Source: Acidobacteriota bacterium (GTDB taxonomy: Bacteria; Acidobacteriota; Terriglobia; Bryobacterales; Bryobacteraceae). Taken from it: a stretch of 64,000 nt of DNA. Positions 16,781-52,379 of this stretch are shown piece after piece. Numbering within the stretch: position 1 is the first letter of the stretch; every line of letters starts with the position of its first letter. A program made the translations under genes and the position numbers. The notes below the pieces were generated by a model that saw only the letters and a program-made list of their open reading frames with translations, had not been told where the DNA came from and did no database searches. The stretch lies in NCBI GenBank assembly GCA_016871155.1, contig VFZO01000001.1, positions 1-64,000 of the forward strand, given 5' to 3'.

Positions 16781-17422
16781 TTACTTTCGTTTGCGCACTG
16801 CGGCCATAAGGGCGATGCCGGCAGCGGCCAGCGCCATTGTCCCCGGTTCTGGGACGGACCCGGACGAGCCTTGCCCAAGTGCGCCGATTCCGGCGATAAC
16901 GTTATCGGCGCCGGCGAAGGCGCTATTGCCCTGCGCTACCTGAAAGGTCAGGCTCAAGAGCGGCGTATCGCTGATAAAGCCGACGAAGTTTGTGTGTCCG
17001 ACTGGGGCGTTCAGATTGACGACGCTGTCCGGGTCGACGCCGTTGGAGGCGATCAAACTCCCGCTGGCGTTCGGGTCGATGCCGCCAGAGCCGTTCTCGA
17101 AGAAAAAGTTGCCTCCAATGGCCGTGACTCCGCCGGTGAAGCCAGAAAGGAGCAGCGAATCTCCCATCCCCTCTGTGCTCATCATCATGTTGCCGCCGAT
17201 TTCTGCGACGTAGAGTCCGTTGGCCGCGGAAAACTGATAGCCGAAGCCGTTGCCGGACAGAGCCGACGGTGAAGCTAGACTTCCGAATGGGAAGGTTCCA
17301 AAATTCTCTTCATACATGGCGCCGGTCAGAGCGCCGAGAAACGTCGTGCGGTCGGTAAATGTCATGATGGCCGCATTGGCGGACAAGCCGCAAAAAAGAG
17401 CGGCAAACGCCATTTTCTTCAT
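16781..17422 (-). CDS. PEP-CTERM sorting-domain exported protein
   Basis: 213 aa; C-terminal VPEPGTMALAAAGIALMAAVRKRK; signal-like N-terminus; RBS ggaggaat. Confidence 0.88.
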   Translation of the reverse strand: MKKMAFAALFCGLSANAAIMTFTDRTTFLGALTGAMYEENFGTFPFGSLASPSALSGNGFGYQFSAANGLYVAEIGGNMMMSTEGMGDSLLLSGFTGGVTAIGGNFFFENGSGGIDPNASGSLIASNGVDPDSVVNLNAPVGHTNFVGFISDTPLLSLTFQVAQGNSAFAGADNVIAGIGALGQGSSGSVPEPGTMALAAAGIALMAAVRKRK

Positions 17423-17470
17423 AGATATTCCTCCGAATGCATTGCTGCTACATTCGAGGCTAAGCGGGTC

Positions 17471-17499
17471 TGCTTACGACTACAAGTACTTGCGGTAAA
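17471..17499 (-). promoter_or_regulatory. Promoter with spacer-located operator-like element
   Basis: Minus strand TTTACC-N17-TAAGCA; spacer contains AAGTACTTGTAGTCG; 12-bp CTTACGACTACA repeated at 17547-17558. Confidence 0.5.
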
Positions 17500-17571
17500 G
17501 TACATTCGAAACTAAGGTGGCGACGGATAAGGCCTAAGTGAATCGCCTTACGACTACACGAGGCGGAGCGC

Positions 17572-17958
17572 TTACAACAGGGTCGGGTCGAACCCAGCGT
17601 CTTCGCCCACCGCGGTAGCAGCGGCGATGGGTTTTTCCTGGTTTAGCCAGTTCTGCAAGCCCTCTCTGGAGCCGCCAAAATAGAGGCGGACGAGCTCGTC
17701 GATGGCCGCACTGCGCAACAGGTTGGCATCCCGGCAGGGCGCGTAGAGGAATCGGCGTCCTTGTTTCCGGCGGGAGACCTGGCCTCGCTTGGTCAACCGG
17801 TCCAGCAGAGTCAGCACGGTTGTGTAGGCGAGGGTCTGGCGCGGATGAAGGACATCCACCACTTGGTGGACGTCGCCTTCCCCCAAATCCCAGAGTGCGG
17901 CAAGGCAGGCCATCTCTAAAGGAGGGGGCAGGGGTGATTGACTGGGTCGGCGGGGCAT
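17572..17958 (-). CDS. BlaI/MecI/CopY-family transcriptional regulator
   Basis: 128 aa from ATG 17958; LEMACLAALWDLGEGDVHQVVDVL...LAYTTVLTLLDRLTKRGQVSRRKQGRRFLY winged helix; the 197-aa ORF start is too far upstream. Confidence 0.88.
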   Translation of the reverse strand: MPRRPSQSPLPPPLEMACLAALWDLGEGDVHQVVDVLHPRQTLAYTTVLTLLDRLTKRGQVSRRKQGRRFLYAPCRDANLLRSAAIDELVRLYFGGSREGLQNWLNQEKPIAAATAVGEDAGFDPTLL

Positions 17959-17963
17959 TTCGA

Positions 17964-19058
17964 TTACTTCAGATCCTCTAGGGCCCCACTGAGTTTCTCG
18001 GCAAACAAAGATCCTGTGGTGGGATAGTCTGCCGATTTGGCGGTTTTTGTAGTTTTTGGGGCTGGCGGCGCGGGTGCCGGAGGCGTGGCGACCGGGTCGT
18101 CCTCGGCGAGAAAGCGATCCTTTTTCAGCAGCGTACGCTCCAGGGAGGATGCCCAACCGGTCCAATTTCCGCCCATCAACACATCCCGTTCGATGGCGAC
18201 GCGGACGGTCTCCATCTTGGAATCCAGATTGTCCAGGTGATGCAGAAGCATGGCCTCCAGGAAGAGCGGGACCTTGGGAGAGCCGTATTCCATCAAACCG
18301 TGATGGCTGGCGATCATGTGCTCAACCAGCATGCGTAACTTCGGCGGAAATCCGGAGACGTTTCGGATCTTTTCATCCAGCATTCGAAGCGCGATGAGAA
18401 TATGGCCGGTCAGTTGGCCTTCGTCGGTGTAACCGAAGGCGCGCTCATAGCTGAGTTCGTGGATCTTGCCTATGTCGTGGAGGATCACGCCAGTTACCAG
18501 CAGGTCCTCGTCGACGTCCGGGTAGTGCTTCGCGGTGAACTTGGCCAGCGTCATCAGACTCAGCACGTGTTCTATGAGTCCGCCGATCCAGGCATGGTGG
18601 ATGGACTTAGCGGCCGGGGCGGTTTTGAAGCGCAGGGCGATCGCGGGGTCGGCGAAGAATGCCTCCATCAGAGCCTTCAAATGGGGGTTTCGCATGGCGG
18701 CGATGTGGCCCAGCAACTCGGCCATCATCTCTTCGCGGTCACGCTTGGAGCAAGGGAAGTAGTCGCCGGGGTCGACGTCATGCTCGCCGGCGCGCGATAG
18801 GCGGTCGACCCGGAGTTGCATCCGGTTCTGATAGACCGTGGCCGCCCCACGGACCTTCACATAGTCGTTGCGGTCGAACGTATCCATGATCTCGGCGACG
18901 TTGTCCCACATCTTGGCGTCCAGTTCACCGGTTTTGTCGCCCAGCACCAGTGAGAGATAGGGCTCACCGGTCTTTTTCTGGCGCACTTCTTTACTCAGTA
19001 CGAGAAAGTAAGACTGCACCGTCTGGTTCTGTTCGATTTCGTTGACGAAGGTTTTCAT
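17964..19058 (-). CDS. YhaM-like 3'-5' exoribonuclease (OB fold + HD domain)
   Basis: 364 aa; LVLGDKTGELDAKMWDN OB fold; GVILHDIGKIHEL HD motif. Confidence 0.88.
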   Translation of the reverse strand: MKTFVNEIEQNQTVQSYFLVLSKEVRQKKTGEPYLSLVLGDKTGELDAKMWDNVAEIMDTFDRNDYVKVRGAATVYQNRMQLRVDRLSRAGEHDVDPGDYFPCSKRDREEMMAELLGHIAAMRNPHLKALMEAFFADPAIALRFKTAPAAKSIHHAWIGGLIEHVLSLMTLAKFTAKHYPDVDEDLLVTGVILHDIGKIHELSYERAFGYTDEGQLTGHILIALRMLDEKIRNVSGFPPKLRMLVEHMIASHHGLMEYGSPKVPLFLEAMLLHHLDNLDSKMETVRVAIERDVLMGGNWTGWASSLERTLLKKDRFLAEDDPVATPPAPAPPAPKTTKTAKSADYPTTGSLFAEKLSGALEDLK

Positions 19059-19089
19059 CCCTAGAGTTCCCCCTAGGGTATCAGGACTC

Positions 19090-20226
19090 TTACGACTTGG
19101 AGGTCGATTTTCCTGTGATCGCGGTACCTGGGACGGGGAATCCGAGGAGTTTCTTCTTCCGCGTCATGCTGGCTACTTCTTTCTTGGTGACCGTTTCGGG
19201 CTTCAGGACGGCAGGGTCCGTCCACGCCGTGGACTTGCCCGGCGCGGCCGAGGTATCCACATACCCTTCCCGAAGCTCCAGGAACGCTTCGCTGCGCAGC
19301 TTGGTGAGGAATTCGCGGATGGCCGGCTGCATCTTGGGCTCATAGAGCTTGTTCATGATTTCGCCTTCCACTTCCTCATAGGCGGCGAGGCCGGCCTGAT
19401 GATGCTCCTCCACCTTCAGAATTAGCCAGCCGTTGGGCATGCTGAAGGGGTCCAGCGTTTCGTTGCGCTGCGCGGCCCAGACCTTTTCCTCGATCTCCTT
19501 GCGCAGTTCGCCCTTTTTGAACGGCGGCAGTTCGCCCTCGTTGCGGGCGGAGTCGGAATCGGAGTTGTCGCGGGCGAGTTCGTTGAACTTTTCGCCGCGG
19601 CGGGCGCGTGAGGCGAGATCCTTGGCCTTCTTTTCGATGGCCGCTTTTTCGGTGTCGTTCTTCCCTTCGGTTGTCAGGAAGATTTCGCGAAGAAACAGGC
19701 GCTCTTCGCGCTGGAATTCTTCCTTATGCTCGTCGTAGTACTTGCGAACGTCGGCCTTTGGAATCACGATCTTGGAGCTGACTTCCTGGCCGATCACGCG
19801 GCGCGTGAGCATGTTGTTGCGGATCTCGGAACGATAGTCCTCAAACGACATGCCGGTGTTTTCGCGCACGTAGGCCTGGAAGGCGTCCTGATCCGCGATC
19901 TTCGACTTGCGCTGCATGTCGGCGATGTATTTGGTGACCTCGCCATCCAGGTTGATGCTCAACTCCTTGCCCTTCTGGACGAGCAGCATGGAGTCGATTT
20001 TGTCGCGGAGAAAGTCCTTCTCGCGCTCCTTGAGCGCCTGGGCGACGTCGCTCTCGCTGGCGCCGCGGGATTTCATATCCTCGGCCATGGCCTTGCGGGA
20101 GCGGTCGATCTCCGAGCGTGTGATGATCTCGCCGTTGACCTTGGCGATAATCTGCTCGATGACGACAACCTGAGCGGAGAGCGAGGCGGCGGCGAAGCCG
20201 GCCGCCAGTAGGGCGCGGTACGACAT
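19090..20226 (-). CDS. SurA-like periplasmic peptidyl-prolyl isomerase/chaperone
   Basis: 378 aa; IEQIIAKVNGEIITRSEID N-terminus; SurA_N and PpiC-like segment. Confidence 0.85.
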   Translation of the reverse strand: MSYRALLAAGFAAASLSAQVVVIEQIIAKVNGEIITRSEIDRSRKAMAEDMKSRGASESDVAQALKEREKDFLRDKIDSMLLVQKGKELSINLDGEVTKYIADMQRKSKIADQDAFQAYVRENTGMSFEDYRSEIRNNMLTRRVIGQEVSSKIVIPKADVRKYYDEHKEEFQREERLFLREIFLTTEGKNDTEKAAIEKKAKDLASRARRGEKFNELARDNSDSDSARNEGELPPFKKGELRKEIEEKVWAAQRNETLDPFSMPNGWLILKVEEHHQAGLAAYEEVEGEIMNKLYEPKMQPAIREFLTKLRSEAFLELREGYVDTSAAPGKSTAWTDPAVLKPETVTKKEVASMTRKKKLLGFPVPGTAITGKSTSKS

Positions 20227-51531: not shown

Positions 51532-51560
51532 TTGACGAGAAGTACTTTTAGTCGTAAAGT
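51532..51560 (+). promoter_or_regulatory. Sigma-70 promoter TTGACG-N17-TAAAGT, predicted leaderless
   Basis: -35 51532-51537, -10 51555-51560, ATG at 51567; spacer contains AAGTACTTTTAGTCG. Confidence 0.65.
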
Positions 51561-51566
51561 TACAGT

Positions 51567-52379
51567 ATGACGGTCAGCCGCAGACTCTTTGCCGGGCAGC
51601 TTCTCGCGGCGGGCTCCACGGCCTTGTACGGACGATATGTCGAGCCGCTCTGGTTCGACCTGACGTTCACGCGGATCCGCCTTCCTGGCGCGCCGGTGCG
51701 GCGCATCCTGCACATCTCCGACCTGCACGTGGGCGACGGAACGCCCGCGGCGGCACTCACGCAGGCAGTCGTGATGGGTCTTGCCACGCGCCCGGATGTG
51801 ATCTGCCTGACCGGCGACTTTGTTTCCTCGACTATCGGTTTCGATACACCCGCTCTGCGGCGGATCCTGCGCTTGTGCGCGGATACGGCGCCGTCGCTTG
51901 CAGTCATGGGCAATCACGACGGCGGCGCCTGGCTCCGCCGGCACGGCGCGCACGGCACCTCTCGAATCATCCGGGACCTGGTGCAGGAATCCGGCGTGGA
52001 GGTGCTGCACAATGCGTCGACGGCTGTGGCCGGCCTCCGCTTCACCGGCGTGGCCGACCTGTGGTCCGGCGAGTTCCGGCCGGAGCAGGCCTTCTTTCCG
52101 GATCGGGGTCCGAACATCCTGCTTTGTCACAACCCTGACGGGAAGGACCGGCTGCGCGGCTATCCGTGGGACCTGATGCTCAGCGGCCACACGCATGGCG
52201 GCCAAGTAAGGCTGGGACTGGTGCCCGCCGTCTGGGCACCAGTACGTGACCGGCGATATCTGGCCGGACTCCATGAGTGGGAGGGGCGCCAGTTGTTTAT
52301 CACCCGAGGCGCGGGTTCACCGAAACATTTGCGTTTCGGCTGCCGCCCGGAGGTCTCGGTGTTGGAGATTGCGGGTTAG
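51567..52379 (+). CDS. Calcineurin-like metallophosphoesterase (YkuE/YaeI type)
   Basis: 270 aa; HISDLHVGDG, CLTGDFVSS, AVMGNHDGG, LSGHTHGGQ. Confidence 0.94.
   Translation: MTVSRRLFAGQLLAAGSTALYGRYVEPLWFDLTFTRIRLPGAPVRRILHISDLHVGDGTPAAALTQAVVMGLATRPDVICLTGDFVSSTIGFDTPALRRILRLCADTAPSLAVMGNHDGGAWLRRHGAHGTSRIIRDLVQESGVEVLHNASTAVAGLRFTGVADLWSGEFRPEQAFFPDRGPNILLCHNPDGKDRLRGYPWDLMLSGHTHGGQVRLGLVPAVWAPVRDRRYLAGLHEWEGRQLFITRGAGSPKHLRFGCRPEVSVLEIAG

Follow-up and report, generated by a model that had tools for sequence, protein, structure and literature searches.

A candidate operator dyad over a metallophosphoesterase promoter and a possible HTH_34 regulon in Bryobacteraceae-type Acidobacteriota

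Introduction

The repressors of the BlaI, MecI and CopY type act at sites in promoters, and the boxes of BlaI and CopY contain the core TACAnnTGTA. The MarR, PadR and ArsR-type repressors are small winged-helix dimers, which sit on inverted repeats lying over promoters. The HTH_34 family (PF13601), with PH1061 (1UB9) as a solved relative, is a curated domain family. To our knowledge, no operator or target set has been published for it, and our literature searches found no HTH_34 operator. The search for GTACTTT and AAAGTAC returned only unrelated papers.

In our study, we analysed a stretch of 64,000 nucleotides (hereafter the window) together with the genome to which it belongs and the genomes of its family. 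The window resembles the BlaI/MecI/CopY systems in that a BlaI-family gene adjoins a PEP-CTERM gene and in the logic of a repressor site within a promoter, whereas no site was found to be conserved near the orthologs of the window BlaI. The candidate operator described below, GTACTTT-N7-AAAGTAC, is unlike the operators of the MarR/PadR/ArsR-type repressors. The genome was found to encode an HTH_34 regulator that matched PH1061 by sequence (E=9e-6) and matched the Pfam families of the MarR/PadR/ArsR type more weakly than PF13601. Two creD genes with an upstream dyad (L226, L227) bring the CreBC/CreD regulon to mind, but CreB belongs to the response regulators and its binding site differs from the dyad. 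For a domain family for which we found no described operator, the candidate dyad, an operon that seems to regulate itself and a few listed targets make HTH_34 function testable with one purified protein.

The metallophosphoesterase promoter

The gene studied encodes a YaeI-like metallophosphoesterase, which matched the NCBIfam model with 232.9 bits (cut-off 188). The features of its promoter were as follows.

51567..52379, forward strand: YaeI-like metallophosphoesterase gene, 270 aa (Pfam PF00149; NCBIfam NF008460)
51532..51537, forward strand: -35 box TTGACG, aligned with TTGAC/TTGG in the same-genus orthologs
51555..51560, forward strand: -10 box TAAAGT, separated by 17 nt from the -35 box and lying 6 nt before the ATG, overlapping the right arm of the dyad
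51542..51562, forward strand: operator-like dyad GTACTTT-TAGTCGT-AAAGTTA, 12/14 to GTACTTT-N7-AAAGTAC, with an extra T ahead of the final AC

The same-genus orthologs were 56-61% identical to the metallophosphoesterase, and their promoters, L038 excepted, contained TTGAC/TTGG-N17-TAnnnT with the -10 box N6/7 before the ATG. This geometry was kept despite an upstream gene that differs from that of the window. The window sequence TTGACG-N17-TAAAGT-N6-ATG fits the ortholog pattern, and therefore the promoter call, made in an earlier note on this DNA, is good. The same geometry suggests that the mRNA is probably leaderless.

The dyad GTACTTT-N7-AAAGTAC

The dyad of the phosphoesterase overlies the spacer and the -10 box and ends 4 nt before the ATG. 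Its strict score of 12/14 had a p of 0.0015 against shuffles of the promoter. The earlier note had placed a repressor site in the promoter spacer; an operator-like dyad does lie over the spacer and the -10 box, but the 19-letter sequence named as the site is not supported as the operator. An imperfect ACTTT-N7-AAAG dyad recurred among the orthologous phosphoesterase promoters, and the longer form GTACTTT-N7-AAAGTAC was suggested by two sites of the window's own genome and one ortholog. The composite ACTTTN7AAAGTTACART-ATG was present only at the window gene and the G006 ortholog among 237 family genomes.

The exact dyad occurred 29 times, in 27 of the 237 family genomes, versus 2 times for the reversed control (about 15-fold). 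It was mostly located 2-40 nt ahead of a start codon, often 2-5 nt; an ATG was found within 5 nt at about 11 of the 28 readable loci, and most of the others had a start codon within 40 nt. Genes for a B12/radical-SAM protein, for an ankyrin lipoprotein and for CreD recurred after the exact dyad, as did a gene whose product had no Pfam match. Another recurrent set contained a membrane protein, then a winged-helix regulator, and uppS. The Pfam-less family (L222, L223, L070, and C233:475-1260 of the genome itself) starts with MDNFEPF.. or MDKHFAGL.. and contains the motif RQFQLGE; in several genomes its start codon stands 5 nt past a perfect dyad.

About 40 phosphoesterase promoters were given a strict dyad score. 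Five of them (L049, L138, L139, L149, and L155) contained the dyad at p<=0.001. The dyads of the closest orthologs were weak, with 9-10/14 (p=0.019 in L042 and 0.08-0.22 in the others); by this score none was found in L038, and it was mostly not found in the distant promoters.

In the 2.38 Mb of the genome that was read, about a third of it, there were 7 sites with a spacer of 7 and at least 12/14 matches, versus 0-6 in the control palindromes, which is a modest excess. Four of the 7 were located just before genes, namely those of a small membrane protein (C16), an M13 peptidase (C9), the regulator operon (C12), and the phosphoesterase; at least 2 of the 7 were inside genes. A dyad near the uppS of the genome (L333:17817) was discarded, as it lies inside a prepilin-peptidase-like gene, and the dyad at L296:17799 also lies inside a gene. 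The shorter ACTTTN7AAAGT gave 5 sites versus 3 for the control and is too short to judge.

The candidate HTH_34 regulator

Four of the 28 exact-dyad loci (L218, L235, L236, and L243) encode PF13601/HTH_34 winged-helix regulators, all of a single orthologous group; most dyad loci were far from the regulator gene. The ortholog in the genome was located by protein search (tblastn), not by motif, and its upstream DNA was read afterwards.

C12:7337-7699: HTH_34 regulator, PF13601 with 83.1 bits (cut-off 27), 60% identity, behind a membrane protein
C12:6729-6749: dyad GTACTTT-GGAGCAC-AATGTAG before the regulator operon, 12/14 with a spacer of 7, 4 nt ahead of the start of the membrane protein

Of the predictions made, that of a dyad ahead of the regulator operon was the clearest one to be borne out. 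In a MAG labelled deltaproteobacterium (L146:363-3777), what appears to be a single operon contains the genes of a membrane protein, an HTH_34 regulator, a DUF4153 protein and a YaeI-like phosphoesterase, and upstream of it lies the inverted repeat ACTAGTTT-N7-AAACCAGT, with the TTT-N7-AAA core as in the dyad. The genome, with about a third of it read, may contain further HTH_34 paralogs.

The dyad could also be real and serve a different regulator of the winged-helix or MarR/PadR type, with HTH_34 as a co-regulated passenger. The genome is indeed rich in winged-helix regulators, with 31 matches to the PadR family (PF03551). However, the upstream regions of 30 PadR genes were read and showed other elements, with no GTACTTT/AAAGTAC dyad standing out, and PadR was rejected as the regulator; the regulator found beside the dyads was HTH_34. 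We consider such a reader of the dyad distinctly unlikely. The PadR matches (G000 C6, C12, C27 and others) mostly had distinct short elements around the -10 region.

A simpler view is that the phosphoesterase promoter is real and unregulated, and that the dyad and the 19-letter match arose by chance in AT-rich promoter DNA. The weak strict scores of the nearest orthologs, the small excess of 12/14 sites in the genome and the abundance of 17/19 pairs in the window (given below) agree with it. The roughly 15-fold excess of the exact dyad over the reversed control in the family, the several independent phosphoesterase promoters at p<=0.001, and the dyad at the regulator's own operon do not, and we regard chance as unlikely.

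The proposed HTH_34 regulon

The phosphoesterase dyad is, in our judgement, more likely than not the operator of an HTH_34 repressor, as a site predicted from sequence. The metallophosphoesterase would have its own leaderless sigma70-type promoter, and the operator dyad, with the consensus GTACTTT-N7-AAAGTAC, would overlap the spacer and the -10 box. A dimeric HTH_34 winged-helix regulator (C12, 7337-7699) would bind the dyad, and the bound dimer would exclude RNA polymerase and so repress the phosphoesterase together with the regulator's own operon and a small number of further genes. Repression, and not activation, is suggested because the right arm of the dyad covers the -10 box. The inducing signal may be the state of the envelope, at which the dyad-bearing genes hint since they include creD, uppS, and the phosphoesterase.

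The promoter geometry, the dyad, its family-wide enrichment before start codons, the site at the regulator operon, and the HTH_34-phosphoesterase operon of another lineage are features read from the DNA itself. More tentatively, we propose that GTACTTT-N7-AAAGTAC could be the operator through which an HTH_34 regulon, so far undescribed, controls envelope genes in Bryobacteraceae-type Acidobacteriota. Such a regulon would be mainly envelope-related (creD, uppS, the YaeI-like phosphoesterase, the M13 peptidase, and membrane proteins), would also contain some radical-SAM and other genes, and would have an operator whose end often stands 2-5 nt ahead of the start codon.

A 19-letter similarity shared by two promoters

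The phosphoesterase promoter had been paired in the earlier note with that of a PEP-CTERM gene, through a shared spacer element. The features concerned were as follows.

51540-51558, forward strand: AAGTACTTTTAGTCGTAAA, first element, in the metallophosphoesterase promoter
17491-17473, reverse strand: AAGTACTTGTAGTCGTAAG, second element, in the PEP-CTERM promoter, without the right arm of the dyad
16781..17422, reverse strand: PEP-CTERM protein gene (Pfam PF07589)
17572..17958, reverse strand: BlaI-family gene (Pfam PF03965), probably starting at ATG 17958, immediately behind an OB-fold/HD-domain gene

The two 19-letter elements were found at these positions with an identity of 17/19, and the -35 and -10 hexamers with 17-nt spacers were present at both promoters as had been described. 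The -10 box of the PEP-CTERM promoter, TAAGCA, agreed with TATAAT at just 2 of 6 positions. When all pairs were counted, overlapping ones included, the window contained 130 inverted and 116 direct 19-letter pairs at 17/19 or better; therefore, a 17/19 match is ordinary in 64 kb. A scan allowing 3 mismatches to the 19-letter pattern had an expectation of 0.01, which is circular because the pattern was derived from the pair itself. In the intergenic DNA only (about 2.2 kb), the 51540/17491 pair was the sole between-locus pair at 17/19 or better, and simulated intergenic DNA gave one such pair in 2.7% of runs. The intergenic pair is thus mildly unusual, before discounting the freedom with which it had been chosen.

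The genome-wide search, which had been named beforehand as the check that could refute the shared element, found the motif at chance frequency. The 19-letter pattern had 4 matches with at most 3 mismatches, as did its reversed control; for TAGTCGTAA, there were 22 matches versus 34 in the control. Only the two window sites fitted the pattern perfectly, and most TAGTCGTAA matches outside the window appeared to be coding. In the orthologous phosphoesterase promoters, neither TAGTCGTAA nor the spacer sequence was kept. The extent of the 19-letter element also speaks against it as the operator: it spans only the left arm of the dyad and the unconserved 7-bp centre, and the PEP-CTERM site contained the left arm GTACTTG and the centre TAGTCGT with the right arm absent. 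Since the centre is unconserved among the dyads, the TAGTCGT common to both promoters is most simply, and probably, a coincidence, and the 19-letter match as a whole is mostly coincidence. A near-identical 19-letter sequence can mislead in this way, as half of the match fell in the unconserved centre of a likely true site.

The PEP-CTERM upstream region

The region upstream of the PEP-CTERM gene contained two further features.

17486..17503, reverse strand: palindrome GTACTTTACCGCAAGTAC, which agrees with the dyad arms at 13/14 positions and has a 4-bp spacer
17546..17557, reverse strand: TGTAGTCGTAAG for the second time, with N8-CTTAG after it as at 17483-17472, a local direct repeat

The best dyad with a spacer of 7 in this promoter scored 10/14 (p=0.06), which speaks against placing the PEP-CTERM gene and the phosphoesterase in one regulon, as had been suggested. 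Relatives of the PEP-CTERM gene were found in 2 of 60 other genomes (G026 at 40%, and one marginal match in G014), and none of 18 same-genus genomes contained a clear ortholog; the region upstream of the G026 relative contained no such element or dyad. As an addition compatible with HTH_34 repression of the phosphoesterase, the PEP-CTERM gene could be a second HTH_34-type target through the 4-bp-spacer palindrome GTACTTTACCGCAAGTAC. In the 2.38 Mb, this palindrome was the only arm match of at least 13/14 with a spacer other than 7, and it falls in the PEP-CTERM upstream region. However, a dimer whose arm spacing is fixed would not be expected to take 4 bp for 7, and together with the 10/14 score and the G026 relative this makes the addition very unlikely.

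The 12-bp exact direct repeat of TGTAGTCGTAAG in the 149-nt upstream region was reached in 0.1% of simulations (p=0.001). With two copies of TGTAGTCGTAAG-N8-CTTAG and CTTAGnnTCGAATGTA present twice, positions 17423-17571 resemble a partly duplicated promoter region. A repeat element was ruled out, as this DNA is single-copy in the genome.

The BlaI-family gene

The gene at 17572 belongs to the Penicillinase_R family (PF03965, 65.1 bits), as had been recognised, and its orthologs were present in most same-genus genomes with 50-59% identity. According to the earlier note, BlaI (17572-17958) would bind AAGTACTTNTAGTCGTAAR in both promoters and repress both genes. Besides the correct identity of BlaI, this agrees with the two TGTAGTCGTAAG copies that adjoin blaI in the PEP-CTERM region, with the resemblance of TACTTGTA to the TACAnnTGTA core, and with the mildly unusual intergenic pair. 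However, TAGTCGTA was found at just 1 of 23 BlaI-ortholog loci (L123 only, about 300 nt downstream), and the dyad co-localises with HTH_34 instead. The other five BlaI genes of the genome had different, unrelated dyads in front. The scarcity of TAGTCGTA, the few PEP-CTERM relatives and the unrelated dyads of the other BlaI genes therefore leave a conserved BlaI-PEP-phosphoesterase circuit unsupported. With the motif at chance genome-wide, no clear same-genus PEP-CTERM ortholog, and TAGTCGTAA not kept in the orthologous phosphoesterase promoters, we hold repression of both genes by BlaI to be highly improbable.

A long palindrome, TTACGACTACNNGTAGTCGTAA, was also tried as a BlaI box and gave no match above the control. 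The SurA/parvulin-like, OB-fold/HD and orphan BlaI genes stand in a row on the reverse strand (17572-20226), and the window BlaI, conserved across the genus, lacks a BlaR neighbour within the window. In many relatives (L106-L119), a conserved AT-rich leader was found after the BlaI ortholog, ahead of another gene.
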